Below are positions 30,358 to 52,497 of a stretch of 64,000 bases of DNA, one piece after another; positions within the stretch are counted from its first letter, which is position 1; each line of letters opens with the position of its first letter. The position numbers and the translations under genes are program-made. Source of the stretch: Pontiellaceae bacterium B1224 (GTDB lineage: Bacteria; Verrucomicrobiota; Kiritimatiellia; Kiritimatiellales; Pontiellaceae); the NCBI GenBank assembly GCA_029432815.1, contig JAROBA010000007.1:1-64000 (forward strand). The letters are read 5' to 3'. The notes under the pieces are model-generated. The model searched no databases. It was not told the origin of the DNA and was given only the letters and a program-made list of their open reading frames with translations.

Positions 30358-30437
30358 CACCCAACGGGGCAGGGCGCTGGTGCCCATAAGTGAAATGGAA
30401 CTCCCTAAGATCCCTGTCTTTACGGCCTTTTTTCGTT

Positions 30438-30453: not shown

Positions 30454-30495
30454 TTAGCGCTTGTCGAATCGAAAAATTAACACAGGAGTGAGATC

Positions 30496-31122
30496 ATGAC
30501 ACACAAGAGTACAATGTTTGCAATAATCGCTGGATGCCTGGTAACAGGCTGGATGCTGCAACCCGTTATGGCTGGCAAGGGGAATGGAAACGGAAAAGGC
30601 GGCGGCGCTGTAACGATCCCGGTTGTGACAGAAGATGAAGCAGTTGATTTGCTTTTCATGCGTGAGGAAGAAAAGCTCGCACGGGATGTTTACATCACGA
30701 TGTATGCTCTTTGGGGCAATCGGGTGTTCGATAACATTTCGCAGGCGGAACAGAAGCATGACGATGCGGTGTTTAGCCTGATTGAAAAATACGGTCTCAC
30801 AGATCCCGCGTTGGCAGGTATCGGCAACTTTACGAATTCCGAGTTGCAGGAACTATATGATGCCCTGATTGCTAAAGGAGAGGTTTCTGTTCTTGAGGCA
30901 TTGAAGGTAGGTGCGTTGATTGAAGAGGTGGACATAGAAGATATCGTCCTGTCGATGGAACGCACCGACAAAGTCGATATTCTTAATGTGTACGGGAATC
31001 TGCTGGCCGGTTCGGAAAACCATCTGGTTGCTTTTGTGAAGAATATTGAATCGCTGACCGGCACGACTTACGAGGCCCAGTACATTTCTCAGGAAGAGGT
31101 CGACGCCATTCAGGGTCGATAA
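30496..31122 (+). CDS. Exported ferritin-like DUF2202 protein (second paralogue)
   Basis: A 208-residue protein with a signal peptide ending near AGKGNGNGKGGG, a Gly/Asn/Lys linker. It then has the same DUF2202 fold: LLFMREEEKLARDVYITMYALWGNRVF, AEQKHDDAVFSLIEKYGLTDPAL, VGALIEEVDIEDIV and AGSENHLVAFVKNIESLTGTTY. Unlike the first paralogue it lacks the early Cys pair. A sigma-54 promoter seems to drive it. The two copies probably arose by tandem duplication and then got different control. Confidence 0.85.
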   Translation: MTHKSTMFAIIAGCLVTGWMLQPVMAGKGNGNGKGGGAVTIPVVTEDEAVDLLFMREEEKLARDVYITMYALWGNRVFDNISQAEQKHDDAVFSLIEKYGLTDPALAGIGNFTNSELQELYDALIAKGEVSVLEALKVGALIEEVDIEDIVLSMERTDKVDILNVYGNLLAGSENHLVAFVKNIESLTGTTYEAQYISQEEVDAIQGR

Positions 31123-33052: not shown

Positions 33053-33095
33053 TTGGCTACAAGTGATTTAGTGTTTGCTGAAACGGGGTGGGTAT

Positions 33096-34508
33096 ATGGA
33101 GAACCGGAACGACAGTTCGCTTGCCGGGCTGAGTGTATTGGTGGTAGACGACGAGGCGCTGCTTCGGCGGAGACTGGCCGCTCATTTGAAAGAGCTGGGT
33201 GCGGAGGTCACGCAGTCGGAATGCCTTGAAACAGCGCGTAGTCGACTGGCCGCGAGTGTTTATGATTTTGTCCTGCTCGATATTCATTTGCCGGACGGCA
33301 TCGGGCTGGATCTGTTACAGAACCATACCATTCCGTCGGAGACCGGCACGGTGGTGATGACCGCGCAGGGAGGGGTGGAAGGTGCGGTCGATGCCATGCG
33401 GCTGGGCGCGCTGGATTATCTGGTGAAACCGTTCGATCCCGCGCTGCTGCCTTTGGTGATGAATCGAGTGCGGAAGTTGCGGCAGAGCTCGCGCGTGAGT
33501 GAGCATGAGCGGGAAAAGGAGGACGAGTCCGGTTTCTTTTTCGGTCAGTCGCTCGATGAGCTGCGTGAACGGTTGAATAAAATAATCGCCGCCGATACCC
33601 GCCTGGTCACGAGCCTCCCACCAGTACTGATTGCCGGCGAAACCGGTTCCGGAAAATCAACGATTGCGCGTTGGCTGCATCGCAATGGTCCGCGTGCGAA
33701 TCAGCCGATGATTGAGGTGAACTGTTCGGCGTTGCCGGAGTCGTTGGCGGAGTCGGAATTGTTCGGCAGCGAAAAGGGCGCGTTCACCGATGCCCACGCC
33801 ATGCGCCAGGGTTTGTTCGAAGCGGCGCACGGGGGTACGCTGTTTCTGGATGAGATTCCCAGTCTGTCATCGGCCGTTCAGGCCAAGGTGCTGACAGCCA
33901 TTGAGGACCGCAGTATTCGGCGCATCGGCGGGAATCGTCAGATCGATGTGGATGTTCGGGTGATTGCCGCTACCAACCGGGATCTGCACGATGCCGTGGA
34001 GTGCGGGGAATTCCGCGAGGATCTGCTGCATCGGCTGGATCTGTTTCGTCTGGTGCTTCCGCCGTTGCGTGCGCGGGGGGAGGATATGATTCTATTGGCG
34101 GAACGGTTGCTGGCAGAACTCTGCACCCGGCATCGCCTGCCGCTCCGTAAAATTACGGAAGAAGGCAAGCGCCGCATGCTGGCCTATCGCTGGCCGGGTA
34201 ATGTGCGCGAGCTGGCACACGAGCTGGAGCGTGGTCTTGTGTTCGACGATGCCGCTGTGCTCGACTTCGCGCGCCTTTCCAATGGGGAGGGATCATTGAA
34301 TGGAATCCCGCTCGATGGAAGCGATTGGCTGAACCCGCTGTATGATTTTGCTAAAGAAAATTTTCAGATGGAAGACGCGATTAACCGATTGGTCCAGCTG
34401 GCGCTGAAGCAGACAGGAGGCAATGCCTCGAAGGCGGCCCGCATGCTGGGGGTCACGCGCGACTTTATTCGTTACCGTCTGCACGGAGACCGGAAAGAGA
34501 AATCGTGA
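33096..34508 (+). CDS. NtrC-family sigma-54-dependent response regulator
   Basis: About 470 residues. A receiver domain (LSVLVVDDEALLRRRL, Asp in DFVLLDIHLPDG, Lys in LDYLVKPFDP) is followed by an AAA+ domain (GETGSGKSTIARWLHRNG; Walker B GGTLFLDEIPSL; R-finger region) and a Fis-type HTH (GGNASKAARMLGVTRDFIRYRL). The sigma-54 contact loop reads GAFTDA where GAFTGA is usual; this variant does occur in the family. The ATG at 33096 is preferred over a TTG at 33075. The next gene starts within its stop codon. It probably works with the histidine kinase at 35617. Confidence 0.9.
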   Translation: MENRNDSSLAGLSVLVVDDEALLRRRLAAHLKELGAEVTQSECLETARSRLAASVYDFVLLDIHLPDGIGLDLLQNHTIPSETGTVVMTAQGGVEGAVDAMRLGALDYLVKPFDPALLPLVMNRVRKLRQSSRVSEHEREKEDESGFFFGQSLDELRERLNKIIAADTRLVTSLPPVLIAGETGSGKSTIARWLHRNGPRANQPMIEVNCSALPESLAESELFGSEKGAFTDAHAMRQGLFEAAHGGTLFLDEIPSLSSAVQAKVLTAIEDRSIRRIGGNRQIDVDVRVIAATNRDLHDAVECGEFREDLLHRLDLFRLVLPPLRARGEDMILLAERLLAELCTRHRLPLRKITEEGKRRMLAYRWPGNVRELAHELERGLVFDDAAVLDFARLSNGEGSLNGIPLDGSDWLNPLYDFAKENFQMEDAINRLVQLALKQTGGNASKAARMLGVTRDFIRYRLHGDRKEKS

Positions 34509-35605
34509 TGCCGAAATATTCATTGTTCAGTGGTCTGGCGCTTGGAGCGTTTCTGTTGAGTGCACAGGCTCAGAGTACGAACACCGGGGCTTTGGCGGTG
34601 TGGGATTCCACGACCTCCCTGTATGGCTCGTTCGGATATCGGGAGAATGTGCTGCGCTCAAGTATGGTGAATGAAAACAGTGCTTTTTTTATGACGTCAG
34701 CTGATGCCAGCCTAATGCGTCTGTCCGAGACGGACGCCTATTTTATGTTCTATTTTTTCGGTGAAGACATTCGCTATTTTAATGCGCCAACCGTGAATTA
34801 TGAACAGTTCTTTTCCATCTCCGCTCAGGGGGCTATGCCGGTGGGAGATAAAAGTGAAACCGGCCTGGCTGTGGATTACCTGTATCAGCATCAGATTTAT
34901 GACGCCTCGGAAACGCAGGACATACAGCGCCGCCTGCTTATTCTGGGGCACAGCCTGAGTGCAAGGCCCTATTGGACCTGGTTTCTCAGTCCGAAGTGGG
35001 AGGCAACGTTGGATGCTGCTACGCTTCGCCAAATTTATGAGCAGGATCTGGATGACTACACGGAAGGGGATGTGAGCATTTTTCTCGACCGCATTTATGG
35101 AAACCGATCCACCGTGGGTATTGGATATCAATATCTGAAACGGTTCTATGATACACGGCTGCAGACCGATGAATCCGGCTTAAATATTCCCGACACCGAT
35201 CTTGTTTATACACAGCATGAATTTTCCGGAGATTGGAAACATTACTGGGATGAAAACCGCAACTGGCGATCTATGACCCGGTTGAGCGGAATGCTGAACC
35301 GCGATAATGGATCGGGTTACTTTGATTATGATCGGGTTCTGTTCCGCGAACAGCTGCGTTGGGACGATCGAACGTGGGCCGTGTTGACGAATATTCGGTT
35401 GGGCTGGTATTCCTACCTGACCCAGCAGATTGGAGATGAAAATAGGGAACGAACCTATGCGATGGTGGATGTGCGTGTCGAGAGAAGGTTCTGGCAGCAC
35501 GGAGTCTTGTTTGCGGCGGGCGAGTATGAATGGGATTGGAGTAATGATCCGCTGGATGAATACCGCACCTGGATGGCACATGCAGGAATTGGACTGGAAT
35601 TTTAG
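34508..35605 (+). CDS. Outer-membrane barrel-like protein between regulator and kinase
   Basis: A 365-residue protein with a signal peptide (MPKYSLFSGLALGAFLLSAQAQ), alternating aromatic strands, and a C-terminal F-R-G-free end (HAGIGLEF) of outer-membrane type. The start ATG overlaps the regulator stop (TGATG). I do not recognise the family. It lies between the response regulator and the kinase genes, and so may be a surface sensor or a target of the same system. Confidence 0.65.
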   Translation: MPKYSLFSGLALGAFLLSAQAQSTNTGALAVWDSTTSLYGSFGYRENVLRSSMVNENSAFFMTSADASLMRLSETDAYFMFYFFGEDIRYFNAPTVNYEQFFSISAQGAMPVGDKSETGLAVDYLYQHQIYDASETQDIQRRLLILGHSLSARPYWTWFLSPKWEATLDAATLRQIYEQDLDDYTEGDVSIFLDRIYGNRSTVGIGYQYLKRFYDTRLQTDESGLNIPDTDLVYTQHEFSGDWKHYWDENRNWRSMTRLSGMLNRDNGSGYFDYDRVLFREQLRWDDRTWAVLTNIRLGWYSYLTQQIGDENRERTYAMVDVRVERRFWQHGVLFAAGEYEWDWSNDPLDEYRTWMAHAGIGLEF

Positions 35606-35616
35606 AGGATGAATGG

Positions 35617-37044
35617 GTGAATTATTCTGCTGTCAGTTTAGATAAATTTATACCGCGTACCCGCAGCGCCTTCGGCTTCGGAATTCTGATTGCGCTGTTG
35701 GTGCTGGGGTTGACCGTATCTTCAGGGCTGTTGTTTGTGCGTAACCTGGTGCGGGAACAGATTGTTCGCCGCGATGCCGTTGCGCTGCATGCCACAATGC
35801 TGATGGAACAGATTGATATCGAGGAAATGGACGAACTGGATATCCGGACGGATGAGCAGATCAGTTTCGATGCCGCGGTGCGGTCATCGCGTTTGCGCGA
35901 TGTGCTGGGTATTCGGTTCTATGATACCGCCGGAACTTTTTATGACTCGTTCCCGGCCACCATCCAGCCGCAACCGCTCGATGCGGCGGCTTTGGAATCG
36001 CTTCACCGGTTTCAGCCGGTCGGGAAATTTCTGCCGGAAGAACCGCTGGATTCTGTGTTTATCTATCTGCCGGAATTTTCCAACGGCCCAGCTGCAAAGT
36101 CCGCCATGCTGGAAGTCACCGTTCCGCTGCATCAGCGAAACACGAAGAAGCTGCTGGGTGCCGCGCAGTTCATTATTGAAGGGCAGAGTGTTGCCAGCGA
36201 ATATGCACAGCTCGACAGGAACCTGCTGCGTTATGCGCTGACTACGTTTCTGATTGCGGGGTTGCTGATGGTGGCTATGCTATGGCCCGCCTTTCGCCGT
36301 GTGCAGAAACTTACGACCGAATTGGCGTATCGCAGCGAACGCTTGCAACAGGCCAACGAGGAGCTCGCGCTGGCCGCCCGGGTCTCTGCCGTTGGCGCGG
36401 TTTCCGCCCACCTAATGCATGGGCTCAAAAACCCGCTGGCGAGCCTGTCGCAATTTGTCTCGGCACAGAAAAGCGAAGGCGGAGAATCCAGAGATTGGGA
36501 GGACGCCTTAACGGCAGCCCACCGAATGCAATCGCTGGTGGAGCAGACCATGGAAACGCTGAGCGATGCCAAGGGGCAGCCCAGCTATGAACTGACCGTG
36601 CCGGAGTTGGGAGAGGAACTGATCCGGCGGGTACAGGATCGCGCGGACCTTAAACAGATTCCCGTTCAATTTACCGCAGAGGGTAAATGCATGCTTTCAA
36701 GCCGAACCGCCAATCTGGCCAGTCTGATTTTGGTGAATCTGCTGGAGAACGCGATCCAGGTAACCCCGGCTGGAAAAACAGTGCAGGTGCGGGCCTCGCG
36801 CGACCCGGCCTTTCTCTATTTCAGAGTGTCGGACGAAGGGCCCGGTTTTCCGGAAGATCAACTGAATGAGCTGTTCCTTCCAGGGAAATCTACCCGCGAG
36901 GGGGGCAGCGGTTTGGGATTGGCAATCTCGAAGCAGATCGCGGAATTTCTTGAGGCCGATCTGCAGCTTGAAAAGTCAGGGGCCGACGGCTGCACCTTCA
37001 TGCTGAAGCTTCCGATGTCCGTTTGTCTTGAATCACCGTGTTAA
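35617..37044 (+). CDS. Sensor histidine kinase
   Basis: A 475-residue inner-membrane kinase starting at GTG with GAGG upstream. One helix lies at about residues 20-42 and a second at about 205-228, with a periplasmic sensor between them. The phospho-acceptor His is in VSAHLMHGLKNPLASLSQF (about 269), and ATP-binding motifs are NLLENAIQVT, SDEGPGF and GGSGLGLAI. The H box lacks the usual H-E/D pair and has H-G-L-K, as found in several NtrB-like groups. It is the last gene of the regulator operon and likely phosphorylates the product of 33096. Confidence 0.88.
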   Translation: MNYSAVSLDKFIPRTRSAFGFGILIALLVLGLTVSSGLLFVRNLVREQIVRRDAVALHATMLMEQIDIEEMDELDIRTDEQISFDAAVRSSRLRDVLGIRFYDTAGTFYDSFPATIQPQPLDAAALESLHRFQPVGKFLPEEPLDSVFIYLPEFSNGPAAKSAMLEVTVPLHQRNTKKLLGAAQFIIEGQSVASEYAQLDRNLLRYALTTFLIAGLLMVAMLWPAFRRVQKLTTELAYRSERLQQANEELALAARVSAVGAVSAHLMHGLKNPLASLSQFVSAQKSEGGESRDWEDALTAAHRMQSLVEQTMETLSDAKGQPSYELTVPELGEELIRRVQDRADLKQIPVQFTAEGKCMLSSRTANLASLILVNLLENAIQVTPAGKTVQVRASRDPAFLYFRVSDEGPGFPEDQLNELFLPGKSTREGGSGLGLAISKQIAEFLEADLQLEKSGADGCTFMLKLPMSVCLESPC

Positions 37045-40158: not shown

Positions 40159-42693
40159 ATGAAACGAATCCTGATATTTATACTGCTTGCAACTTCTGTA
40201 TTTGCTGACGAGTGGCAGGTGATCGGCTGGAACGATCTGGGTATGCACTGCATGGACGGGACCGATTTTTCGGTGTTCTCGATTCTCCCTCCGTATAACA
40301 CCATCCACGCGCATGTGATCCATGACGGGGTGCTGGTCACCTCAACCAACGGTCTGCACGTAACCTTCGAGGCCGTGGCGGATCCGGACGGTTCAATCAA
40401 TACCACGACCGCGGATAAGATTAATTTCTGGGAGCACGTGGCCGATATGTTCGGCGCGCAGCCGGCGGATGATTCCGGGCTGGCTGGTTATTCCATGCCG
40501 GGTGTTGCCAACACGCCGCAGCACATGGAATTTGAAACGGCTCACAATTGGTTTACGGGCGAAGGCATTCCGATTTCGCCGTTTGATGATGCCGGGTTGG
40601 TGAACTATTATCCGATGATGAAAATTGTCGTTCGCAACGATGGCGGAACCGAGCTGGCTTCGACCAAAATCGTATTGCCGGTTTCCGATGAAATGACCTG
40701 CTCCGCCTGCCACCGGTCGGGCAGCGATGCCGCCGCACAGCCGCTGCTCGGCTGGCGCTGGCATCCCGACAGCGACAAGGATGTGAAACTCAACATTCTT
40801 CGTCTGCACGACGAAAAGCAGGCGACCAATCCGGCTTTTTTCCAGGCTTTGGAAAACCAGGGTTTTAACACCAACGGGCTTTATCAAACCGTGGTGGCCG
40901 ACAACACCGCCATTCTCTGCGCGCGCTGCCATCAGTCCAACGCGCTTCCCGTTCCGCCGGATCCCAATGTGAACACCACGATGACGCAGGCGATGCACGC
41001 GCACCACGGACAGGTGGTTGATCCGGCAAACGGTATGCTCCTCAGCAGCTCGCTCAACCGCGATTCCTGCTACCGCTGCCACCCGGGTTCCTCGACCCAA
41101 TGCCTGCGCGGAGCCATGGGCGCATCGGTGGCTGCCGATGGCGGGCTCGCGATTCAATGCCAAAGCTGTCATGGCGATATGGATGCCGTCGGGGCGGAAA
41201 CCCGCAACGGCTGGTTCGACGAACCGAGCTGTCAAGGCTGCCACAGCGGAACGGCTGTTGATAACAACGGAGCCATCCGTTTCCTGACCGTCTTTGAATC
41301 GGGCGGAGCCGAACGTGTGGCGGTGAATGATACCTTTGCGCATCCGACCAACACGCTCTATCGCTTTTCAGAAGGACACGGCGGGTTGCAGTGCTCGGCC
41401 TGCCATGGATCGCCCCACGCCATCTATCCCTCCGCACACGCCAACGACAACCTGCAGAACATGGACATGCAGGGACACAAGGGAACCGTGAGCGATTGCC
41501 TTAACTGCCACACCTCGCAGCCGCAGACCTTCACCGGTGGACCGCATGGTATGCATCCCGTCGGCGAAAGCCGCTTTTCGATTAAAATCGACCATCAGGA
41601 AGACTGGTTCCATGAACATGCGCTGGAAGATGACGGTCCCGGACTGTCTTCGTGCCGGGCCTGTCACGGGGCGGACGACCGGGGCACCGTGCTTTCGCTG
41701 GCGCAGGGCGACCGCACCATTGATACCGACGACTTCGGCATCAAAACCTTCTGGAAAGGTTATCGCATCGGCTGCTACACCTGCCACAACGGCCCCGATA
41801 CAGACGATCCCAACAACAATCCCGCACCGGTGGTTTCCAATGCCGCGGCTTCCACCACGGCAAATGATCCTGCAGCGATTGCTCTGACTGCAAACGAAGG
41901 AACGATCCGCATTATCTCGCAACCGCAGAACGGAACCGTCGGCCTGACCGGCTCGACTGCAACCTACTATCCTTTCCTGAACTTCGTCGGCACCGACTCC
42001 TTCACCTTTGCGGCATGGGACGGCAAAAAGGATTCCAATCTTGGAACGGTGACAATAACCGTGAATGAGGGAGCGTGCGTGCTCGTTTGTGAGTCGGTGG
42101 TTCCTTTGAATTCTGTCTCCCGAACGGCGCTTCCATTCTGGGCATTCGCCACGGTCTCGAACTGTACCGATGCGGCTTCCTATGTCTGGAACTTCGGCGA
42201 CGGCGGCAGCTCCTCCGATGCGTTGGCACAGCATGCGTATGGAAAGAACGGAACCTACCCGTGGCAGGTCATCGCGTCCGCCGGCAGTTTATCCGTCACC
42301 AATACCGGCTCCATCACGGTTGGAAACATTCAACTGGATACCGACGCCGACGGCATTGAAGACGACTGGGAATGGGCGGTTTTCCAATCCCTGGAAACCG
42401 CCAGTGCTTCATCTGACTTCGACGATGATGGGCTGAGCGATAAGCAGGAATATCTCTGCGGCTCCAACGCTTTGGACCCGGCATCCAAATTGGCATTCAA
42501 TGACTCGACGGCGAATGTGGTCCGCTGGGCCAGCGAGCCGAACCGGATCTACACCATCAACGCGACCACTTCACTGGTGGAAACCGCCTTCGCCCCGATC
42601 GTAACTGAGATTCACGCAACGCCTCCGGAAAATGCGTACACCAACCTAACCACCGCTGCAGCCGCGTCATTCTATCAGGTCGAACTGGAATAA
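40159..42693 (+). CDS. Extracellular nine-heme cytochrome c with Ig/PKD-like domains
   Basis: An 844-residue protein with a signal peptide (MKRILIFILLATSVFA). Nine CxxCH heme sites lie between about residues 180 and 540: CSACH, CARCH, CYRCH, CQSCH, CQGCH, CSACH, CLNCH, CRACH and CYTCH. A cadherin-like/Big segment (about 560-640, GTDSFTFAAWDG) follows. A PKD-like domain (about 675-730, YVWNFGDGGSSSD) and a TSP3-type DTDADGIEDDWEW...DFDDDGLSDKQEYLCGSNALDP segment complete it. Such proteins carry electrons outside the cell. The long non-heme tail is unusual for a cytochrome and suggests surface attachment or exposure. A TATAAT -10-like box occurs about 55 bp before the start. Confidence 0.88.
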   Translation: MKRILIFILLATSVFADEWQVIGWNDLGMHCMDGTDFSVFSILPPYNTIHAHVIHDGVLVTSTNGLHVTFEAVADPDGSINTTTADKINFWEHVADMFGAQPADDSGLAGYSMPGVANTPQHMEFETAHNWFTGEGIPISPFDDAGLVNYYPMMKIVVRNDGGTELASTKIVLPVSDEMTCSACHRSGSDAAAQPLLGWRWHPDSDKDVKLNILRLHDEKQATNPAFFQALENQGFNTNGLYQTVVADNTAILCARCHQSNALPVPPDPNVNTTMTQAMHAHHGQVVDPANGMLLSSSLNRDSCYRCHPGSSTQCLRGAMGASVAADGGLAIQCQSCHGDMDAVGAETRNGWFDEPSCQGCHSGTAVDNNGAIRFLTVFESGGAERVAVNDTFAHPTNTLYRFSEGHGGLQCSACHGSPHAIYPSAHANDNLQNMDMQGHKGTVSDCLNCHTSQPQTFTGGPHGMHPVGESRFSIKIDHQEDWFHEHALEDDGPGLSSCRACHGADDRGTVLSLAQGDRTIDTDDFGIKTFWKGYRIGCYTCHNGPDTDDPNNNPAPVVSNAAASTTANDPAAIALTANEGTIRIISQPQNGTVGLTGSTATYYPFLNFVGTDSFTFAAWDGKKDSNLGTVTITVNEGACVLVCESVVPLNSVSRTALPFWAFATVSNCTDAASYVWNFGDGGSSSDALAQHAYGKNGTYPWQVIASAGSLSVTNTGSITVGNIQLDTDADGIEDDWEWAVFQSLETASASSDFDDDGLSDKQEYLCGSNALDPASKLAFNDSTANVVRWASEPNRIYTINATTSLVETAFAPIVTEIHATPPENAYTNLTTAAAASFYQVELE
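40840..40854. repeat. Iterated palindrome, copy 20 (centre GGCTT)
   Basis: Perfect copy in the cytochrome gene, read F-Q-A-L-E between heme sites 1 and 2. Confidence 0.85.
42382..42396. repeat. Iterated palindrome, copy 21 (centre ATCCC)
   Basis: Perfect copy in the cytochrome gene, read F-Q-S-L-E inside the TSP3-type segment. A shortened TTCCAATCTTGGAA (14 bp) lies near 42037. Confidence 0.85.
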
Positions 42694-42918
42694 CTACAGC
42701 GCCAATGGTTACAAGAGCCATTGACGATGGGTTGCAGTTAAAGCAGTGCCGCTCTGCAAGGGTTTTGAATCCGATATGAAATAGCTTATTTTTATCGCGC
42801 TAACTCATTGTGTAAAAGCAAACAGTATATATGGGCTCTGAATCGTTAGGGTTATGGATTATCTATTTTTCATTAAAAAAAATTGATGAATGATTCGTGC
42901 TGTGGATGAGTGTCCCGC

Positions 42919-43611
42919 ATGAATTCTACTGCAAAAAAATATAATGATCCGCCCGGTTTAGTTTCTCAGGTTTTGACGGTGAGTCGCATCGACCACGAGT
43001 ATGACCAGACCTATAGTTATTGGCTGAAACCTACCGATGAGGTTGTATTTGTTGCGGGGCAGTATTTCCATTTAGTGGCTCCGGAAGAATCCATCAGCAA
43101 GGCGACGGCTCGGCACATGTCGGTGGCCTCATCTCCTTTGGATGATGAGTTGCTGTTTTCGATGAGTGTGGCTTCACAAAGTCAGTTTAAAAAACGATTT
43201 TCCGACGTTTCTGTGGGGGATGAAGTTCGCATCTTTCATGTGGATGGCGAGTTTACCCTGGACGGGATTCCGGAAGGGGCCGAGCTGGTCTTCGTTGCGG
43301 GCGGAATCGGCATTACGCCGTTTCGAGCTCTCATTCGGGATATCGAGCTGCGGAACTTAAACTATGCCTGGTCGCTTATTCATGTGGCCCGGAACTTTCT
43401 CTATCAGGATGATTTTAAACAGTATTCCAATTCGCAACTTCACATCGGCCGAAACGATGTGCCGGAAACCATTGAAGCCGTGGTGGCCGAACAGCCGAAC
43501 GCGTACTATTTTGTCAGTGGTTCCGAACGCTTTATTGAAGGGCTCGCGGATCGTATTGCTTCGCACGGAATCGACCGTTCGCGTATCCGGTTGGAAAACT
43601 TTAATCATTAG
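42919..43611 (+). CDS. Ferredoxin/flavodoxin-NADP reductase-like flavoprotein
   Basis: About 230 residues with an FAD-binding barrel (AGQYFHLVAPEE) and NAD(P)-binding part (ELVFVAGGIGITPFRALIRD, then AYYFVSGSERFIEGL). It lacks an iron-sulfur domain. ATG at 42919 is preferred over GTG at 42910, although both have poor ribosome sites. It might pass electrons to nearby redox proteins or act as a ferric reductase for the siderophore operon that follows; neither is shown by sequence. Confidence 0.82.
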   Translation: MNSTAKKYNDPPGLVSQVLTVSRIDHEYDQTYSYWLKPTDEVVFVAGQYFHLVAPEESISKATARHMSVASSPLDDELLFSMSVASQSQFKKRFSDVSVGDEVRIFHVDGEFTLDGIPEGAELVFVAGGIGITPFRALIRDIELRNLNYAWSLIHVARNFLYQDDFKQYSNSQLHIGRNDVPETIEAVVAEQPNAYYFVSGSERFIEGLADRIASHGIDRSRIRLENFNH

Positions 43612-43643
43612 CGTTTGATCCGGATCTGCTAACTGCGTTGATG

Positions 43644-43666
43644 CTATTTGGATTTAATCCAGATAA
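43644..43666 (+). promoter_or_regulatory. Operator-like dyad of the siderophore operon
   Basis: CTATTTGGATT-T-AATCCAGATAA: arms of 11 bases with two mismatches (first base and one inner base). Next to it is TTGACA (43671-43676). Its best match in the window is 58349-58371, which has identical layout. The pattern TATTTxGATT-x-AATCxAxATA could be a metalloregulator box of Fur or DtxR type. Confidence 0.55.
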
Positions 43667-43747
43667 CGGGTTGACATGAAGAGCGGTTTATTTAAGTTAG
43701 CGCCTCCTAAGTTATCAGGGATTGGCTCAAGCAGCTGATCTCAAAAA

Positions 43748-43768
43748 CCTGTCAGGGTGGCCCTGAAG
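43748..43768 (+). promoter_or_regulatory. Conserved 21-nt element in the siderophore leader
   Basis: A 21-nt element starting CCTGTCAGGG and ending CCCTGAAG. Its inner TCAGGG-TGG-CCCTGA is a perfect dyad. It differs at one base only from 58254-58274 (minus strand), and in both loci it follows the dyad by 74-81 bp. Confidence 0.55.
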
Positions 43769-44096
43769 TGTGTTGAAAAAAATATCGGTCTGCTAGACTC
43801 CGCGATGGGGTGCGCAACTGAAATTGAGCCGGATACAGAAGTGATCCGGGCACGCCATTCAGATGCGATTGATCCGTTTATTTAGAACAGGGCAGCATGC
43901 CTTCTATTCCTTTTTCCGTTCGTCTTCTTTCAGGAAGAACTGCGCCCAGTCGGAATTGAATTTCCCTTTTTTTTCAATTTTTCCGTTGAGCACTTGCGTT
44001 CTGCGCATGGCTCGCCGGTCTTCGTTTGCAGCCTATGGCCGGGTGGCCCGGCGTGGGATTGTGAATATGTATTCAACCATTACATCAGGAGTATCC

Positions 44097-46172
44097 ATGA
44101 AAGCTAAGGCTTATCATAAAACAAGTTGGCTTGCGGCGTTGGCTGCAGGTTTAGCGGTTGGCGCAGTTGCCGAAGAAACTAACGAAACAGCGGTTGCTGA
44201 AAATGCCGTGGCAGAAGAAACCGTTCAGGTGATCCCCCAGGAGATGGATGAGGTTCGTACCGTGTCTGTCATCGGAGAGGATTATATTGAGCACATCCAG
44301 GCCTCTACGTTAGGTGATATTTTCCGGGTCGATCCGGAGGTCACCGTTGGCGGCGGCGGTATTCCGGCCGCACAGAAGATTTATGTGCGTGGCTTGGAAG
44401 ACACCATGCTCAATGTCGAGATCAACGGCGCGCCGCAGAGCACGCAGATCTATCACCATCAAAGCCGCATCCTGGTCGACCCTGAATTACTGAAATCGGT
44501 TGAGGTGCAGTCCGGCGCCGGAGCGGCCACTTATGGTCCCGGCGCATTGGGCGGATTCGTTCAGTTCGAATACAAAAACGCATCGGATATGCTCGACCCG
44601 GGCCAGGCGCTGGGAGCCTTTGTTAAAGGCGGCTACTATTCCAATGGTGATGGCTATAAGGCGGATACCGCAATTTTCGGTTCGGTGAATGAGGCGCTTA
44701 ACCTTATGGCGCTCTACACCCGCTACGACATCGGCTCCTACGAGGCCGGCGGCGATTATGGCGAGGTTGAAAATACCGATGTGACCTCGGACCGAATCTA
44801 TCTTTCGGCGGACGGACGCTTCGGTGATGAACATTCCTATACGGCCTCCTATGATTGGTATCAGGACGCAGGCCCGCGTCGCATCCGCGCGAACTTCCAG
44901 GGCGACATCACGCATCCCGTGCTGCCCAACCCGGTGGTGGATCAGGAGGCGACTCGTCAAACGGCTGCCTTCAACTACGCTTTTGACTCAATCTCAACCG
45001 ATATGGTTAATCTCGAGTTCAAACTCTATGCGACGGATATCGAGTCCAGCCAGAAAAGTTCCGAAACCTATGTGACAGGACCTCCTTTCTTCTACGATAT
45101 GGATTTCGATTACGACCTCGGCGGCGGTAACTACGGCACGGATCTGCGTAATACATCGGAGTTTGAACTTGCTGGAGAGCATGGCCTGACCTATGGCGCG
45201 GACTACCGTCATGATGAGGTGACCTTTGATAACCGTACCGCCGGATCCAATTCCCTCGGTCCGATGTTTGCCGACTGGGCTGACGCCGAGGCGAAGGGTC
45301 AGATTTACGGGGTTTATGTGCAGGATAACTGGCGTCTGAATCCCAAGTTTCTGCTCAGCTACGGCCTGCGCTGGGACCAGTATGAATATGAGGACCCTCA
45401 GGGGATTGAAGTTGATATGAATGGCTTCAGTCCGAATGTCGGGATCACCTTCACGCCCGTTCAGCAGCTTGATATCTATGCCAACGCTGCGCGCGCTTTC
45501 CGTGGCATGCTGGCGCCGGAGGCCCTCTTCCTCAGCCACCCGTCGCACGTCACCGATCCCGATGCCGATCCGGAAACCGCATATAACTACGAGCTGGGTA
45601 TGAACCTGAATTCAGGCGGGTTCCGCGCCAACGTGGAAGGGTACTATCAGGAAATCTACGACTATATCGGAACCCTGGATCGCACCAATATAGGCGACGT
45701 GAAAATTCCGGGCTATTCCGCGTCGGTCGGATATCACTGGGACATGCTGGTCGCCTCGATCGGTGTGAACGAGTCGTTTCCGGAAATGAACGGCGAAATG
45801 CTCGTCAATGAGGACAACATCGGGCTGGGTGCTGCCAGCGGACGGACCTGGATTACGAGCCTCGAATACTGGTTCCCCACCACGGGCGTTGTCGTGGGCT
45901 GGAATGGTCGCTTTGTGGAGCGGCTGGAAGATCTGCCGCAGCCGACAACCGGAGTCCGTCCGGACAAAGCTGGATTCGGCGTGCACGACATCTATGTCAG
46001 TTGGACCCCGCCCAGCCACGATGCCCTGACGCTGACGTTCACGGTGAATAACGTGTTCGACCAGTTCTACTACGAGCACACCACCTACGGGTATAACTCC
46101 AGCCTCGATGCAACCGTCGGGTTGCCGGAGGCGGGCCGCGACTTCAGACTTGCTGCAAGCTATACGTTCTAA
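44097..46172 (+). CDS. TonB-dependent siderophore receptor
   Basis: About 691 residues with a signal peptide (MKAKAYHKTSWLAALAAGLAVGAVAEE). AGGAG supports the ATG at 44097; in-frame starts upstream (from 43863) run through the leader. The plug domain covers about residues 55-180 (IPAAQKIYVRGLEDTMLNVEINGAPQ, then SVEVQSGAGAATYGPGALGG). The rest is the 22-strand barrel, ending in F (LAASYTF). The following binding protein and permeases are of iron-siderophore type, so a ferric siderophore is the likely ligand. Confidence 0.9.
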   Translation: MKAKAYHKTSWLAALAAGLAVGAVAEETNETAVAENAVAEETVQVIPQEMDEVRTVSVIGEDYIEHIQASTLGDIFRVDPEVTVGGGGIPAAQKIYVRGLEDTMLNVEINGAPQSTQIYHHQSRILVDPELLKSVEVQSGAGAATYGPGALGGFVQFEYKNASDMLDPGQALGAFVKGGYYSNGDGYKADTAIFGSVNEALNLMALYTRYDIGSYEAGGDYGEVENTDVTSDRIYLSADGRFGDEHSYTASYDWYQDAGPRRIRANFQGDITHPVLPNPVVDQEATRQTAAFNYAFDSISTDMVNLEFKLYATDIESSQKSSETYVTGPPFFYDMDFDYDLGGGNYGTDLRNTSEFELAGEHGLTYGADYRHDEVTFDNRTAGSNSLGPMFADWADAEAKGQIYGVYVQDNWRLNPKFLLSYGLRWDQYEYEDPQGIEVDMNGFSPNVGITFTPVQQLDIYANAARAFRGMLAPEALFLSHPSHVTDPDADPETAYNYELGMNLNSGGFRANVEGYYQEIYDYIGTLDRTNIGDVKIPGYSASVGYHWDMLVASIGVNESFPEMNGEMLVNEDNIGLGAASGRTWITSLEYWFPTTGVVVGWNGRFVERLEDLPQPTTGVRPDKAGFGVHDIYVSWTPPSHDALTLTFTVNNVFDQFYYEHTTYGYNSSLDATVGLPEAGRDFRLAASYTF

Positions 46173-47141
46173 ATGAAAACAATACGCCAAAATCGATTGG
46201 CCATGGCCGCGGCATTTGCCGCGGTTTTTGGCGTTTTTATAAGCGGCTGTAAACCGGCCGATTCCGACGTTCCAATGTCTGGAAATTCCAGTGCAGTGGA
46301 AACCCGACTCATCACCGATGCATTGGGTAACGAGGTGCAGGTTCCTGTGCATCCGCAACGCGTGCTGGCACTTAGTGAAGTCGATCTGGATGCGATGCTC
46401 GCGCTGGGCGCGAAGCCCTTTGGCGCCACGGCCGGACGCGGGCAGGACACCTTTCCCCGCTATCTGCTGGAGCAGACCGAAGGCATTGAGCTGATGGGAG
46501 CGTTGTATCGCCCGTCCCTCGAACGCGTCATTGGCGCGCGGCCCGATCTGATTCTGTGGGGAGGCTATATGGATGACGGGATCGCGGCAAAGCTCCGGAA
46601 AATCGCGCCGGTGGTGCGGACTTACGGGATGGAAGATGGATGGCGTATTGCGCTGGAACAGGTGGCCAATGCCCTCAATCTTCAGGAGCAGGCTGTGGCC
46701 TTCGAACTCGCTTATGCCGAGCGCGTGAAATCCATTCAGGCCGAGCTGGGCGATGCGCTGCAGAAAAAGGTTAGCATCATCCGGTGGAACCCGAAGGGCC
46801 CGGCGTTTATGCACGCGGATAGCTTCGGGCGCGGGATCACGGTGGACCTCGGGCTGGACATTCCGGAAGGACAGGATGTGCCGGGCCCCGCGCATTCCAA
46901 AATCATCAGCTTCGAAAATCTGGATATGATCGACGCCGACTGGATCTTCCTCGGAACCCTCACGGGAGAAGGCGACGCGCAGCGTTCGCTGGATGCCGCG
47001 CTGGATAATCCGGCCTTCGCCCGACTCAATGCAGTCAAGTCCGACCAGGTGGTTGTGGTGGATGGCTCCATGTGGACCTCGTCCGGTGGTCCCATTGCCG
47101 CACAGCAACTCGTGGAAGAAGTATACGGCGCATTGAAGTAG
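46173..47141 (+). CDS. Iron-siderophore ABC transporter binding lipoprotein
   Basis: A 322-residue FecB/BtuF-fold protein with a lipobox (VFGVFISGCKPAD, Cys at about 26). Motifs PQRVLALSEVDLDAMLALGAKPFGAT and PSLERVIGARPDLILWGGYMD are typical of ferric siderophore binding proteins. The ATG follows directly after the receptor stop codon. A palindrome copy is read P-M-S-G-N just after the lipobox. Confidence 0.9.
   Translation: MKTIRQNRLAMAAAFAAVFGVFISGCKPADSDVPMSGNSSAVETRLITDALGNEVQVPVHPQRVLALSEVDLDAMLALGAKPFGATAGRGQDTFPRYLLEQTEGIELMGALYRPSLERVIGARPDLILWGGYMDDGIAAKLRKIAPVVRTYGMEDGWRIALEQVANALNLQEQAVAFELAYAERVKSIQAELGDALQKKVSIIRWNPKGPAFMHADSFGRGITVDLGLDIPEGQDVPGPAHSKIISFENLDMIDADWIFLGTLTGEGDAQRSLDAALDNPAFARLNAVKSDQVVVVDGSMWTSSGGPIAAQQLVEEVYGALK
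46270..46284. repeat. Iterated palindrome, copy 22 (centre ATGTC)
   Basis: Perfect copy in the binding-protein gene, read V-P-M-S-G-N. Confidence 0.85.
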
Positions 47142-47144
47142 CGT

Positions 47145-48143
47145 ATGAAAATAGGTTTCGTCATTTTGGGTTTGCTGGCGGCATGCCTCGTCTCACTGGG
47201 TGTGGGAGGAGGCAGCGTCACGTTGCCGCATGTGTTCGACTACCTGAGTGGTCGGCCGCTCGGTGCCGATCCCGACTATGTCGAAATGGTCATCGTCTCC
47301 ATTCGCCTGCCGCGCACGTTGGGCGCGATTCTGGTCGGCACCTGTTTCGGGCTGGCCGGTGCACTGCTGCAAACCGTCACACGCAACCGATTGGCCGAAA
47401 CTGATCTGCTCGGAATTAATGGCGGTGCGGCCTTGGGCGTGGTGATTGGTCTGACGTTTTTCGGGGCCGAGTCCGTCGCCAGTTATATGGGCTGGTCGTT
47501 TGGCGGTGCGCTTTTCGGGACCATGCTGGTCGTCGCCATTGCGGGGCGGGGTGGAGTTGCCATTCCGCCGCTGCGCCTCGTGCTGACCGGCCTGGCGATC
47601 GCCTCCACCGTGCAGGGCATCATTGGATTCATCCTGCTTCAGAATCAGAACAGTCTCGATCAGTTTCGATTCTGGGTGCTCGGCTCGTTGGCCGGCGTTA
47701 CGCTGGAGGGCATCATGGCCGCGCTGCCAGGAACGATTGTAGGCATCGTGATTGTGCTCGCCATCACCCGCAGTTTAGGCGCACTTCGGTTGGGCGATGA
47801 TGTCGCCAAAGGGCTGGGCCATCGCCCGGCCATCACCCGTTTTGCTGCGATTACCGCCGTGACCCTTTTCACGGGATCGGCCATTGCGCTGACCGGGCCG
47901 GTCGTATTGCTGGGGCTCATTGCTCCGTACGCCGCGCGCTATTTTGTGCGCTCCTCCATGGCCCTCTTTTTTATCGTTTCCGGCATCATGGGCGCATCCG
48001 TGTTGCTGGTAGCGGATTCGGTTTGCCGCGTCATTGTGCAGCCCTACGAATCGCCCGTTTCGGTGGTGGTTGTGCTGATCGGCGCGCCGCTGCTCATTCA
48101 CATCGCCCGCTCACCGAAACAACTCAGTTCCTTGAATAGCTAA
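47145..48143 (+). CDS. FecCD-family siderophore ABC permease 1
   Basis: A 332-residue inner-membrane protein with about ten helices. IRLPRTLGAILVGTCFGLAGALLQTVTRNRLAETDLLGINGGAALG is the family signature, and the coupling region GPVVLLGLIAPYAARYFVR is clear. It starts three bases after the binding-protein gene. It pairs with permease 2 to form the channel. Confidence 0.92.
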   Translation: MKIGFVILGLLAACLVSLGVGGGSVTLPHVFDYLSGRPLGADPDYVEMVIVSIRLPRTLGAILVGTCFGLAGALLQTVTRNRLAETDLLGINGGAALGVVIGLTFFGAESVASYMGWSFGGALFGTMLVVAIAGRGGVAIPPLRLVLTGLAIASTVQGIIGFILLQNQNSLDQFRFWVLGSLAGVTLEGIMAALPGTIVGIVIVLAITRSLGALRLGDDVAKGLGHRPAITRFAAITAVTLFTGSAIALTGPVVLLGLIAPYAARYFVRSSMALFFIVSGIMGASVLLVADSVCRVIVQPYESPVSVVVVLIGAPLLIHIARSPKQLSSLNS

Positions 48144-49198
48144 TGAATACGACGGATCTAAAACCCATTCCCGCTGGCCGGGTGATTCGAGGCGGCTCGT
48201 TCTCCTGGATTCTGCCGTACCGCGCCTGCGCGGTTTCCTCGGTGCTGGCCCTTCTTTCGTTTGCGCTGTTCATCTATGCCCTCATGGCGGGCGAAACCAC
48301 CTTGAATCCCGTTCAGGTTTTCCAATCGTTGATCGGCTCCGCCGATTGGTCGACGAATTTATTGGTCGGCGAAGTGCGGCTGCCTCGCGCCATTGCGGCC
48401 TGGTCGGCCGGAGCCGCGTTGGGCTTATCCGGTGCGATGCTGCAGGCCATCACGCGAAACCGCTTGGCCAGCCCGGACATTCTGGGCGTGAACGACGGCG
48501 CCACCTTTATGGTGATGATTATGGTGATGTTCGCCGCGACGCCCGTGGTGGGGGAATGGCGGATTTCGTGCGGCGGAGCGCTCCTGGCTTTTGCCATTCT
48601 CATGATGCTGAGCCGGAATGTCGGATCGCACGGGCATCGCATGCTGGTGATCGGAATCGGGGTTTCGCAGTTGTTCCGTTCCGTGAATGAACTGATGCTC
48701 AGCCGCGGGCATATTCAGCATGCCACGGCCGTCTATGTCTGGAGCATTGGCTCGTTTGTCGGGCGTGGATTTGAGAATGCATTGCCGGCGATGCTGGGCC
48801 TCGTCATTTGCGTTCCGTGGGCGCTCGCGCTGCAACGGCACATTAATCTCTTTTCGTTCGATGAAACCATTGCGTCCGGTTTCGGGGTTCCCGTGAAGTC
48901 GGTCAAACTGCAAACCATTTTTGTGGCGGTGATCGCCGCCGGACTCGGCCTGTCCGTGGGCGGCCCGCTCGCCTTTATTGCATTGGCCGCGCCCATTGCC
49001 GTAAGCCGCATGGTTCGATCTGCCAAGGTGGCCGTGGTGGGATCAATGTTAACCGGCGGCCTGCTGGCCCTCGGTGGGGATCTCGCCGGCCGAATGGTGC
49101 TCGCCCCGATTGAGCTGCCCGTCGGCGTCGTCTGCCGAATCTTCGGCGGCTTGTTTCTGCTGCTTTTGCTCGTCTTGCCTAAAAGGAAAGTTGCATGA
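48143..49198 (+). CDS. FecCD-family siderophore ABC permease 2
   Basis: A 351-residue permease with VRLPRAIAAWSAGAALGLSGAMLQAITRNRLASPDILGVNDGA and SVGGPLAFIALAAPIAVSRMVR. It overlaps the previous stop by one base (TAATG). Two different permease genes in tandem are usual for Fec/Fhu-type siderophore importers. Confidence 0.92.
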   Translation: MNTTDLKPIPAGRVIRGGSFSWILPYRACAVSSVLALLSFALFIYALMAGETTLNPVQVFQSLIGSADWSTNLLVGEVRLPRAIAAWSAGAALGLSGAMLQAITRNRLASPDILGVNDGATFMVMIMVMFAATPVVGEWRISCGGALLAFAILMMLSRNVGSHGHRMLVIGIGVSQLFRSVNELMLSRGHIQHATAVYVWSIGSFVGRGFENALPAMLGLVICVPWALALQRHINLFSFDETIASGFGVPVKSVKLQTIFVAVIAAGLGLSVGGPLAFIALAAPIAVSRMVRSAKVAVVGSMLTGGLLALGGDLAGRMVLAPIELPVGVVCRIFGGLFLLLLLVLPKRKVA

Positions 49199-49980
49199 AT
49201 ATTTCGATTAAAAATGTTTCCATAAGCTATGGCCCGCATCGCGCGGTCGATACCGTTTCGCTGCACATTCCGGCGGGCGAGGTAACCGTGTTGGTGGGCC
49301 CCAACGGATGCGGCAAGTCTACGTTGCTGCGCGGAATCTCTGGTCTCCAACCCTTGGAAGAAGGGGCGGTGCTGTACGATGAAAAAAACCTTCGCCGAAT
49401 TCACGGACGCGAGCGGGCGCAGTATGTTTCGCTGTTGCCGCAAAGTCCGATTGCGCCGGACGGCATCACCGTGCAGGCCTTGGTTCAATATGGACGGCAT
49501 CCGCATCAGGGCCTGTTCCAACGCTGGTCTCAGCGCGATGAAGAAGTCGTGGCGGCTGCGATGAAGCAGACCGGCATAATCGAATTAGCCGCTCGTCCGC
49601 TCGAAAGCCTTTCCGGCGGACAGCGGCAACGCTGCTGGTTGGCGATGTCGCTCGCGCAGGAATCGCCGATCATTCTTTTGGACGAACCTACGAGCATGCT
49701 CGATATCGGGCATCAATCCGAAGTGCTTTCTTTGGTGAAGCAACTTGCGGCGAACGGAAAAACCGTCGTGGTGGTTCTGCACGATTTAATCGCCGCTGCG
49801 CGCTATGCCGACCGCCTGGTGGCGATGCACGATGGCCGGTTGGTGGCGGAAGGGAAACCCGCCGACATCGTAACGCCCGCGCTGATCCGAGAACTTTATA
49901 ATATTGATTCAACCATCGTGCCCGCTCCCGGCGACGGAGCGCCGGTGGTGATTGCTGATTTGGAGCCTACCCCATGTTAA
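49195..49980 (+). CDS. Siderophore ABC transporter ATPase (FecE-like)
   Basis: A 261-residue ATPase: Walker A GPNGCGKST (about residue 36), signature LSGGQRQRCWLAMSLAQ, Walker B IILLDEPTSMLDIGHQ and switch His in VVLHDLIAAARYADR. It starts ATGA over the previous stop. The CTCCAACCCTTGGAA at 49345 is a one-mismatch palindrome copy. Confidence 0.92.
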   Translation: MNISIKNVSISYGPHRAVDTVSLHIPAGEVTVLVGPNGCGKSTLLRGISGLQPLEEGAVLYDEKNLRRIHGRERAQYVSLLPQSPIAPDGITVQALVQYGRHPHQGLFQRWSQRDEEVVAAAMKQTGIIELAARPLESLSGGQRQRCWLAMSLAQESPIILLDEPTSMLDIGHQSEVLSLVKQLAANGKTVVVVLHDLIAAARYADRLVAMHDGRLVAEGKPADIVTPALIRELYNIDSTIVPAPGDGAPVVIADLEPTPC

Positions 49981-50714
49981 AAAAAATATGCATACTTCTC
50001 CTGTTGGCCTCGGCCGCAGTCGCAGAAGAAACCCCGCTTCATGAACAAGTGGAAAATCATCTGGCGGAAGCCAACCGATTGCGAAGCACGCGCGACGCCG
50101 AATACCGGGCGTGGCAGGAAAACCGCGCTAAAATGGAAACGCTTATCGCGAGCATCGAATCGGTGGCCGAGCAGGAGCGCATTAAAGCCGCGGCGGATCA
50201 AAAGCAGACCGAGCGCTTGGAATCGGCATCAGCAGAATTGATGCGTACGCAGGAAGCCGGTGAAAAGGTGAGTCAGGTTTGCATCGAGTTGATGAATGAA
50301 GTGCATGACACCTTGGATCAGATTTCGCTGCGCTCCATTCCCGGTACCGTTCCGGAAAAGAGCAAGCCGTATGGCGAGCTGAAGGAGCAGTGGCAACAGG
50401 CGATGTCGCGCTGGAAAGCAACGGAGGATGCCTCCCAAAATGTGGACGTCAGAATTATGGTCGGCCTGCTGGGCGATCGCGCTGTAAAAGTGAAGGCCTT
50501 GCTCGTGGGAACCACGCTCGGTTGGTGGATCGATGAAGCAACCGGTCAATCGGGTTTTCTAGTTCCGCCGGCCGATACCGAAGCAGGAGTTGAGCTGGTT
50601 GAGTTTCCAATGTCTGGAAATTTACAAACGGAACTCCGCAAAGCCTTCCAGATTGTCGAAGGCCGCCGCGCACCTCACTGGATTTATCTTCCGCTACAGG
50701 AGGTGAACCGATGA
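49974..50714 (+). CDS. Periplasmic coiled-coil protein (DUF3450-like) of a Ton system
   Basis: A 246-residue protein with a signal peptide (MLKKICILLLLASAAVA) and a helical N-terminal half (residues 25-100: HLAEANRLRSTRDAEYRAWQENRAKME). The C-terminal half is mixed. DUF3450 proteins start the TonB2-type clusters DUF3450-TolQ-ExbB-ExbD-TonB-TPR, and the order here matches. It overlaps the ATPase gene by seven bases. Its role in energy transfer is not defined. Confidence 0.72.
   Translation: MLKKICILLLLASAAVAEETPLHEQVENHLAEANRLRSTRDAEYRAWQENRAKMETLIASIESVAEQERIKAAADQKQTERLESASAELMRTQEAGEKVSQVCIELMNEVHDTLDQISLRSIPGTVPEKSKPYGELKEQWQQAMSRWKATEDASQNVDVRIMVGLLGDRAVKVKALLVGTTLGWWIDEATGQSGFLVPPADTEAGVELVEFPMSGNLQTELRKAFQIVEGRRAPHWIYLPLQEVNR
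50605..50619. repeat. Iterated palindrome, copy 23 (centre ATGTC)
   Basis: Perfect copy near the end of the DUF3450-like gene, read F-P-M-S-G-N. Confidence 0.85.
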
Positions 50715-51997
50715 AACGGCTCCTTTTCAGTTTAATTCTTCCAATGATTGGAACGGCGTTTGCGCAGGAGATGCAACCGGCCGACCTTTTAAAACAGGCC
50801 GAAGCGAAAGAAGCGACGGCGGCAAACGAGCTTGCCGAGCTTCGTGCAGAGGTGGCGCTGGAACATGCTGCGCTTTCAGAAAAAACAGCGCAGGCCTATG
50901 CGGCACTGGCGCAGGCCAAAGCCGAGGCCGAGCAGGCTGCTTTTGACCGCGTGGTTGCGGAGGAAGAATTCAATGAGCTGAAAGTGCGCGGTTCGCTTGA
51001 TGCGGCCCGGAGTCAACAGCTCTTACGCGAATTGCTGATTGCCGCGAATGTGGCCGTCATGCCCAATCAGTCCTGGGCGGAAATTCAGGGCGCTTTGAAG
51101 GAAGGGATTCGCGGGCAGCTTTCGGACTTATTCATAAATTCCACGGTTCGCGAAGAGCAAATGGAAGTGCTCGATCATGCGGGTAAAACAGCCGTTGTGC
51201 CGGTGGTGCATCTGGGCAATGTGCAGATGATTGCCGTTGGTCAAACACCACAACAACGCGGGTTGGTGGAAGTGACGCCGGATGGTCATGCCTATCTGAT
51301 CGGCGTTGCTCCGGAGAATACATCAGCGGGAATTTTCCCCGTCGATGTCAGTCAACGGTTGGAAACCGCTCCCGCACAAAAGAGCTTTATTCAGCACTAT
51401 CTTTCGTCTGGCGGAATTTTCCTCTATCCGATTCTTGCGGTGGGACTGCTCGGTTTCCTCTTAGTTTGCGAGCGTTTGGTCAATATGGTTCGCCACCGGA
51501 GTCCGCCGGCCCTGATGGATACGGTTATCGAGCTCGCTAAAAATCTCGAATGGGATCAGGCGCACGCGATGGTTGACCCGCAGGCTACTCCGTTACAGCG
51601 GGTGCTCCACTGTGGTGTGCATACGCGGGAGAACAGTCGCGATAAACGCGAATCGCATATCGAGAACGCGATTCTCGAAGAGGTGCCGCGCTTGGAACGG
51701 TCGATGACGATGATCGCCGCGTGCGCCGCCATTGCGCCGTTGCTCGGTTTGTTGGGAACGGTGACCGGAATGATCCAAACCTTTAAATCGCTGGGGCTCG
51801 ATGCGGGCGGCGATGCGCTGTCGCAGGGTATTTCGGAAGCACTCATTACCACGCAGGTGGGGCTGGTGGTCGCCGTACCGTTGCTTTTGCTACACGCCAC
51901 GTTCAACCGCATTATTGACCGCCGCGTAATCCGACTGGAACAGGCTGGGCATGCGATGCTGGCGGTCATCATTGAACAGAGCGGAGAGATTGAATGA
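50711..51997 (+). CDS. MotA/TolQ/ExbB protein with long N-terminal periplasmic domain (TtpC-like)
   Basis: A 428-residue protein: a signal-like start (MKRLLFSLILPMIGTAFA), a coiled-coil section (residues about 25-110), a mixed domain to about 235, and then three helices with the ExbB motif (LERSMTMIAACAAIAPLLGLLGTVTGMIQTFKSLG and ALITTQVGLVVAVPLLLLHATFNRIID). It is about twice the length of a plain ExbB. This extended form is typical of TonB2 systems. It overlaps the gene before and after by four bases (ATGA). Confidence 0.85.
   Translation: MKRLLFSLILPMIGTAFAQEMQPADLLKQAEAKEATAANELAELRAEVALEHAALSEKTAQAYAALAQAKAEAEQAAFDRVVAEEEFNELKVRGSLDAARSQQLLRELLIAANVAVMPNQSWAEIQGALKEGIRGQLSDLFINSTVREEQMEVLDHAGKTAVVPVVHLGNVQMIAVGQTPQQRGLVEVTPDGHAYLIGVAPENTSAGIFPVDVSQRLETAPAQKSFIQHYLSSGGIFLYPILAVGLLGFLLVCERLVNMVRHRSPPALMDTVIELAKNLEWDQAHAMVDPQATPLQRVLHCGVHTRENSRDKRESHIENAILEEVPRLERSMTMIAACAAIAPLLGLLGTVTGMIQTFKSLGLDAGGDALSQGISEALITTQVGLVVAVPLLLLHATFNRIIDRRVIRLEQAGHAMLAVIIEQSGEIE
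50739..50753. repeat. Iterated palindrome, copy 24 (centre ATGAT)
   Basis: Perfect copy inside the signal-peptide codons of the extended ExbB gene, read L-P-M-I-G. Confidence 0.85.
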
Positions 51998-52497
51998 TCA
52001 GCACCGCATTAATCTGGTTTCAATCCGGCGGACCGTGGCTCTACATCATCGGTGCGCTTGGGGTATTGCTGTTCATGTTGCTTTTCGAACGGGCCTGCGA
52101 AGCGCTTTCCCCCATGTGGAAGGCATCGCGTCGGCGTGCCTATTGGCGCGAACAATTGAACGAGACCTATCGGGATTGGTCGTTGGCTGAAGCGTTGGAA
52201 GATTTGCTCGCGCGGGAAAAAAAGCGGCTCACGGCCGGAACCACGGTGATTGCCGGATTGGTGCAGGTGCTGATTATGCTCGGGTTGCTGGGTACGGTGA
52301 GTGGACTGATGTCGGCCTACCAAGCGCAGACCAATGGGATGGAAGGCGGCATTGATAAAGCATTGCTCACCACGCAATACGCGTTGGTGCTCGCCATTCC
52401 CGGGGCATTTTTTCACCGGGTCTGGAGCCGTCGGTCGGATCTGCTCTACGAACGCGGCCGCCATCTGGCCAATGAATTTATGCAGGAGGCCGAGTGA
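51994..52497 (+). CDS. exbB: ExbB-like proton channel subunit
   Basis: A 167-residue protein with three helices and the ExbB/TolQ segment LTAGTTVIAGLVQVLIMLGLLGTVSGLMSAYQ, then ALLTTQYALVLAIPGAFFHRVWSRR. It couples proton flow to TonB movement, together with ExbD. Overlaps of four bases connect it with genes on both sides. Confidence 0.87.
   Translation: MISTALIWFQSGGPWLYIIGALGVLLFMLLFERACEALSPMWKASRRRAYWREQLNETYRDWSLAEALEDLLAREKKRLTAGTTVIAGLVQVLIMLGLLGTVSGLMSAYQAQTNGMEGGIDKALLTTQYALVLAIPGAFFHRVWSRRSDLLYERGRHLANEFMQEAE

Follow-up and report, generated by a model that had tools for sequence, protein, structure and literature searches.

A probable secreted nine-heme cytochrome in a Pontiella relative, with an LGMHC domain found across phyla and lineage-specific surface modules

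Why does a marine anaerobe related to Pontiella carry a multiheme cytochrome joined to a surface-protein tail, and where would its electrons go? The gene lies at 40159-42693 of the window (the whole 64-kb stretch of DNA analysed), where it is the sole CxxCH-rich frame, and it is a single-copy gene in its own genome. A sequence-only reading had described nine hemes followed by a surface-protein module, a layout that would place a multiheme wire at the cell surface or in an extracellular matrix. We consider it probable that the gene encodes a secreted, all-bis-His nine-heme c-type cytochrome that would be exposed at or near the outer surface, relaying electrons between the cell and an acceptor, mineral, shuttle or second cell outside it. 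The ligation, the surface exposure, the direction of electron flow and the partner are what we infer around the following layout:

40159..42693, + strand: nine-heme c-type cytochrome gene, 844 aa, ATG start
40159..40206, + strand: probable Sec signal peptide, residues 1-16 (MKRILIFILLATSVFA), without a lipobox, read by eye
40207..40692, + strand: N-terminal non-heme beta domain, residues 17-178, beta strands of moderate AlphaFold confidence
40237..40251, + strand: LGMHC motif, residues 27-31, with His30 as candidate first distal heme ligand
41101..41121, + strand: CLRGAMG motif, residues 315-321, with Cys315, Arg317 and Met320 invariant (40/40)
41818..42060, + strand: Big_9 / cadherin-like domain, residues 554-634, Pfam E 1.8e-8, pLDDT mostly >75
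42124..42315, + strand: PKD domain (PKD_4), residues 656-719, Pfam E 4e-9
42337..42690, + strand: TSP3-like linker and C-terminal beta tail, residues 727-844, similar to tails within the genome

The C-terminal surface-protein module is borne out by the Pfam matches to Big_9 and PKD, which are followed by the TSP3/beta tail; Cadherin_5 is a further, weak Pfam match. TSP3_bac at residues 755-774 reaches 12.2 bits against a Pfam cut-off of 25 and is sub-threshold, and the TSP3 call is supported by the resemblance of the tail to TSP3 tails elsewhere in the genome. Short generic cytochrome models of Pfam match the heme part. The N-terminal beta domain matched no Pfam family, and Foldseek with a low-confidence model returned only weak Ig-like fold matches for it.

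All nine predicted heme sites were found, with the CxxCH motifs spanning residues 181-543:

40699..40713, + strand: heme site 1, CSACH, residue 181, invariant
40918..40932, + strand: heme site 2, CARCH, residue 254, invariant
41068..41082, + strand: heme site 3, CYRCH, residue 304, invariant
41158..41172, + strand: heme site 4, CQSCH, residue 334, invariant
41230..41244, + strand: heme site 5, CQGCH, residue 358, invariant
41392..41406, + strand: heme site 6, CSACH, residue 412, invariant
41497..41511, + strand: heme site 7, CLNCH, residue 447, missing in a seven-heme branch
41653..41667, + strand: heme site 8, CRACH, residue 499, invariant
41773..41787, + strand: heme site 9, CYTCH, residue 539, CxxCH motif

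Chance would yield a mean of 0.04 and a maximum of 2 such motifs (544-residue core with 20 Cys and 32 His, shuffled 20,000 times). CcsA/ResB-type maturation genes are found in the genome, and the CxxCH sites are presumably loaded covalently with heme. What the hemes might do is indicated by comparison with 40 full-length relatives, drawn from Kiritimatiellota/Verrucomicrobiota, Planctomycetota, Campylobacterota and Gammaproteobacteria, all of which have nine motifs and which share 42-98% core identity. Nine histidines outside the motifs (30, 217, 280, 283, 407, 420, 463, 466 and 485) are invariant in all 40. Since nine hemes are matched by nine candidate distal His, bis-His ligation, and hence a low-spin state, is predicted throughout, with conservation as the sole basis of the prediction and one ligand set placed via the alignment. 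Because all hemes are predicted to be bis-His, the set is in turn predicted to serve electron transfer rather than open-site catalysis. A single open heme, indicated by eight invariant His among 25 sequences, was dropped once the count rose to nine with 40 sequences in an improved alignment. AlphaFold yielded a mean pLDDT of 45.8 for the full length and 52.9 for the core (13 and 15 sequences in the two runs), with fair confidence for the N-terminal beta domain and Big_9 only; ligand pairing is not visible in the model because pLDDT is low in the heme core.

The pattern of loss in divergent relatives concerns the same residues. LGMHC, including Cys31, is invariant in 40/40 nine-heme members and retained in the seven-heme branch. 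In that branch hemes 7 and 9 are missing, and so are the positions corresponding to His463 and His466. Members of this branch were located at:

L123:7455-9908: seven-heme LGMHC protein
L124:7672-10116: seven-heme LGMHC protein
L148:7652-10042: seven-heme LGMHC protein
L149:9765-12119: seven-heme LGMHC protein

Conservation at this level could also be expected of a multiheme enzyme acting on one small soluble substrate, outside the cell or in the periplasm, in which Cys31, Cys315, Arg317 and Met320 would form a special site (compare the octaheme tetrathionate/sulfite reductases). The 96 alignment columns invariant across 40 sequences and a core identity of at least 42% between phyla are high for a plain wire, and Cys31, Cys315, Arg317, Met320 and Met341, all beyond the heme motifs, are likewise invariant in 40/40. 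The two-component systems that adjoin the gene in Campylobacterota would suit a substrate-induced respiratory enzyme, and NCBIfam octaheme tetrathionate reductase matches, albeit weak, occur in three of 13 members (TIGR04315; none in the window protein). We nevertheless regard an enzyme as unlikely, given that these matches are due to CxxCH spacing and lie far under the family cut-offs, that nine invariant candidate distal His for nine hemes leave no obvious open site, and that profile and fold searches yield no solved multiheme enzyme.

An electron-transfer protein at the surface, which we prefer, calls for comparison with characterised systems. MtrC and OmcA of Shewanella share with the window protein an extracytoplasmic multiheme design, a beta domain before the hemes and predicted bis-His ligation throughout, and the generic model PF22113 matches the window protein (38.6 bits, cut-off 30) as well as unrelated multiheme proteins of the genome. 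However, MtrC has ten hemes in an architecture of two beta and two pentaheme domains, whereas the window protein has nine in one block behind one beta domain, is accompanied by no MtrAB genes and lacks full-length similarity; the best MtrC match in a profile search of solved structures had E 0.59. OcwA of Thermincola potens, a proposed terminal reductase at the surface, likewise has nine hemes, but it combines two open hemes, one His-Met heme and a C-terminal three-helix bundle in an NrfA-like design (PMC6703420). The family of the window protein, by contrast, keeps all nine candidate distal His, and its chains either stop after heme 9 or continue into beta domains; OcwA gave no match in the solved-structure search, and the nine invariant candidate ligands argue against an OcwA/NrfA-like fold, for a heme core whose model is of low confidence.

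The window protein belongs to an unnamed family of predicted nine-heme electron-transfer cytochromes, whose heme core architecture is novel and whose general kind is already known. Its LGMHC domain precedes heme 1, and it has nine CxxCH with nine invariant non-motif His, the features by which we recognise the LGMHC nine-heme family; no Pfam or NCBIfam model supplies a family name. Profile searches of solved structures and Foldseek with the low-confidence model returned no multiheme relative, a plasmid search gave no match, and literature searches on the LGMHC motif, on multiheme proteins with PKD domains and on multiheme proteins in Kiritimatiellota found nothing. The nearest relative, 81% identical, is from Pontiellaceae bacterium B12227. 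In a search of the phylum (388 genomes), 15 full relatives turned up, and of ten same-genus genomes sampled only four have the cytochrome. Scanning bacterial and archaeal species genomes added members in Planctomycetota, Campylobacterota, Gammaproteobacteria and one record titled Deltaproteobacteria. The N-terminal domain profile matched in 38/397 genomes of the Campylobacterota member's phylum and revealed a divergent branch in five more genomes, of ~2.3 Mb each, from the phylum to which the window belongs; the divergent members read, from both small-genome Verrucomicrobiota and Campylobacterota, have seven CxxCH. In a core tree, Pontiella members cluster, as do Campylobacterota members, gamma members are separate, and the inner forks are weakly supported. 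Some Campylobacterota have up to three nine-heme paralogs per genome; two or three lie near one another, next to a regulator, kinase and porin, at G588:C1:2372065-2382230 and in matching regions of G702, G757 and G685.

The conserved unit would be the LGMHC beta domain plus the nine-heme core, with surface attachment varying by lineage: a Big_9/PKD/TSP3 tail here, other C-terminal modules in other PVC members, and a lipobox-like N-terminus in Campylobacterota and gamma members. Campylobacterota and gamma proteins end 3-8 residues past heme 9 and have at the N-terminus a Cys after a hydrophobic stretch, lipobox-like by eye. PVC members have a Big_9-like domain after the hemes, then PKD/TSP3, BACON-like or dockerin-like modules, the latter two labels being read by eye. 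From these arrangements the tail reads as a swappable add-on. Its last 118 residues match 40 places in the genome including its own (39 others; E ≤ 0.01), which marks it as a generic module carried by secreted-type proteins of this genome; the tail-bearing places are large ORFs of secreted type. The ORFs scanned among them encode, among others, LTD and PKD proteins, a metallopeptidase and a CxxCH-containing protein with an HZS_alpha domain. One such HZS_alpha/CxxCH protein bearing this TSP3 tail lies at G000:C66:57500 (L069).

A generic tail would favour export of the cytochrome without proving surface exposure. PKD and Big domains are also possible on periplasm-facing proteins, and a lipobox by itself does not imply an outward location. 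A search for SprA, taken as a marker of type IX secretion, gave no match in any control and carries no weight here. As an interpretation, the secreted, surface-displayed multiheme protein proposed earlier draws support from the recurrent tail and from the lipobox-like N-termini or other extracellular modules of relatives in other phyla, with exposure itself presumed. At L030:2103-8732, a nine-heme gene of the family is followed closely by genes for type II secretion (T2SSF, secretin).

Do the neighbouring genes point to a partner? The FNR-like ORF noted downstream is present at 42910-43611, in a same-strand order of cytochrome, FNR, TonB heme/haemoglobin-type receptor (likely start ~44097 by sequence, rather than 43863), FecB-like binding protein, permeases and ATPase. 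The region 42910-54791 forms a full TonB-dependent iron/heme uptake cluster, comprising the FNR-like gene, heme-type TonB receptor, Fec-type ABC transporter, DUF3450, ExbB and TonB. The shared strand and order of cytochrome, FNR, receptor and Fec-type genes, along with a divergent TonB receptor adjoining the seven-heme relative L148, would fit a ferric or heme-iron reductase serving the downstream cluster by extracellular iron reduction. We judge this very improbable: 226 bp separate the cytochrome stop from the likely FNR start and ~485 bp precede the receptor, FNR and receptor are absent beside the cytochrome at every other family locus examined, and the FNR would be cytoplasmic because no signal peptide is seen by eye. 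A functional link to FNR was not borne out, no FNR adjoining any other member examined, and an FNR/iron-uptake link as a conserved unit is ruled out by those loci. Of the surface-wire interpretation, the electron-transfer character of the hemes is supported by the nine invariant candidate distal ligands.

Regulatory genes recur in one phylum. In several lineages of Campylobacterota, the genes beside the cytochrome encode a Porin_O_P barrel, a ~136-residue small protein and a histidine kinase with its response regulator (part or whole of this set at L027, L146, L147, L150 and in four closely related genomes) or form a second set of regulator, kinase, small protein and barrel (L025, L026, L145). 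The small protein has no Pfam family and, as an impression by eye, may resemble phosphate-binding proteins. The window itself has, at 33075-37044 and ~3 kb upstream of the cytochrome, a row of genes for an NtrC-type regulator, a protein that looks like a barrel and a histidine kinase. These two kinase/regulator pair types in Campylobacterota and the upstream row, which the nearest relative shares, could befit a redox sensor in the envelope, or an electron store, signalling to a two-component system instead of forming a respiratory route. Such a role seems to us the least probable of all, as most PVC loci have no regulator nearby, the window arrangement is retained in the nearest relative only, and up to three paralogs per Campylobacterota genome suit a dose-dependent role better. 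In PVC genomes, the cytochrome has no conserved neighbour. Two adjacent DUF2202 genes lie at 29728-31122 of the window; proximity of DUF2202 to the cytochrome, seen here and at one Sulfurovum locus, was rejected as a general link, DUF2202 being present in 4/15 cytochrome-bearing genomes, all of the same genus, and in none of the other eleven. Further off, the region 9283-11689 reads by eye as a DNA methyltransferase adjoining a restriction endonuclease.

For a cytochrome relaying electrons at the surface, a route across the outer membrane was sought in the rest of the genome. The lack of porin-cytochrome (MtrAB) genes reported for the window holds in so far as MtrB_PioB (PF11854) had no match at E ≤ 0.1 in the whole genome, in a search whose control is weak (0/14 control genomes passed the cut-off), and needs amending in that a PF14522 search led to a cluster on another contig, C149:

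G000:C149:107633-112290, one strand: candidate porin-cytochrome cluster of a 12-heme lipoprotein-like cytochrome, a 460-residue barrel-like protein and a nine-heme protein with TSP3 tail

The barrel call comes from sequence reading and position, for a protein with no Pfam family. Nearby are four-heme, six-heme NapC-like and eleven-heme/cytochrome b561 proteins and CcsA/ResB-type genes, and contig C138 carries NrfH/NrfA-like genes. The nine-heme protein of C149 (G000:C149:110020-112290) resembles the window protein in its nine CxxCH and TSP3-type C-terminal tail (tail against tail, E 9e-9, residues 696-782), whereas the heme regions are non-homologous beyond the motifs and the LGMHC domain is absent from the C149 protein. 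Freshwater Verrucomicrobia have a non-Mtr porin beside multiheme genes, for which extracellular electron transfer was proposed (He et al. 2017, PMC5615132). The C149 cluster resembles these in layout, within the same phylum in the GTDB sense, though with a 12-heme lipoprotein in place of the eight-heme periplasmic partners described there and with porins likened by layout only; the window cytochrome lies outside any such cluster. C149 is a candidate route across the outer membrane, and nothing links the window cytochrome to it directly. Its barrel gene occurs in just 3/15 cytochrome-bearing genomes (absent from 12/15) and is therefore no obligatory partner of the window cytochrome; it was found in 0/6 same-genus genomes without the cytochrome.

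We tentatively suggest, as a possibility rather than an expectation, a wider picture: an all-bis-His nine-heme family spanning phyla, in which the LGMHC domain may give the first distal ligand, interchangeable anchors display the protein at the surface, no porin-cytochrome partner gene is dedicated to the cytochrome, and a seven-heme sister branch exists in Campylobacterota and small-genome Verrucomicrobiota. Cultured Pontiella are described as fermenting polysaccharide degraders, and the description of P. agarivorans makes no mention of cytochromes. If a multiheme cytochrome at the surface were combined with a porin-cytochrome cluster, external electron acceptors would become accessible to this group during the degradation of algal polymers. 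The family would also offer a clean example of one electron-transfer core provided with different surface anchors in each phylum, and its small lipoprotein-type Campylobacterota members could be studied in a cultured host.
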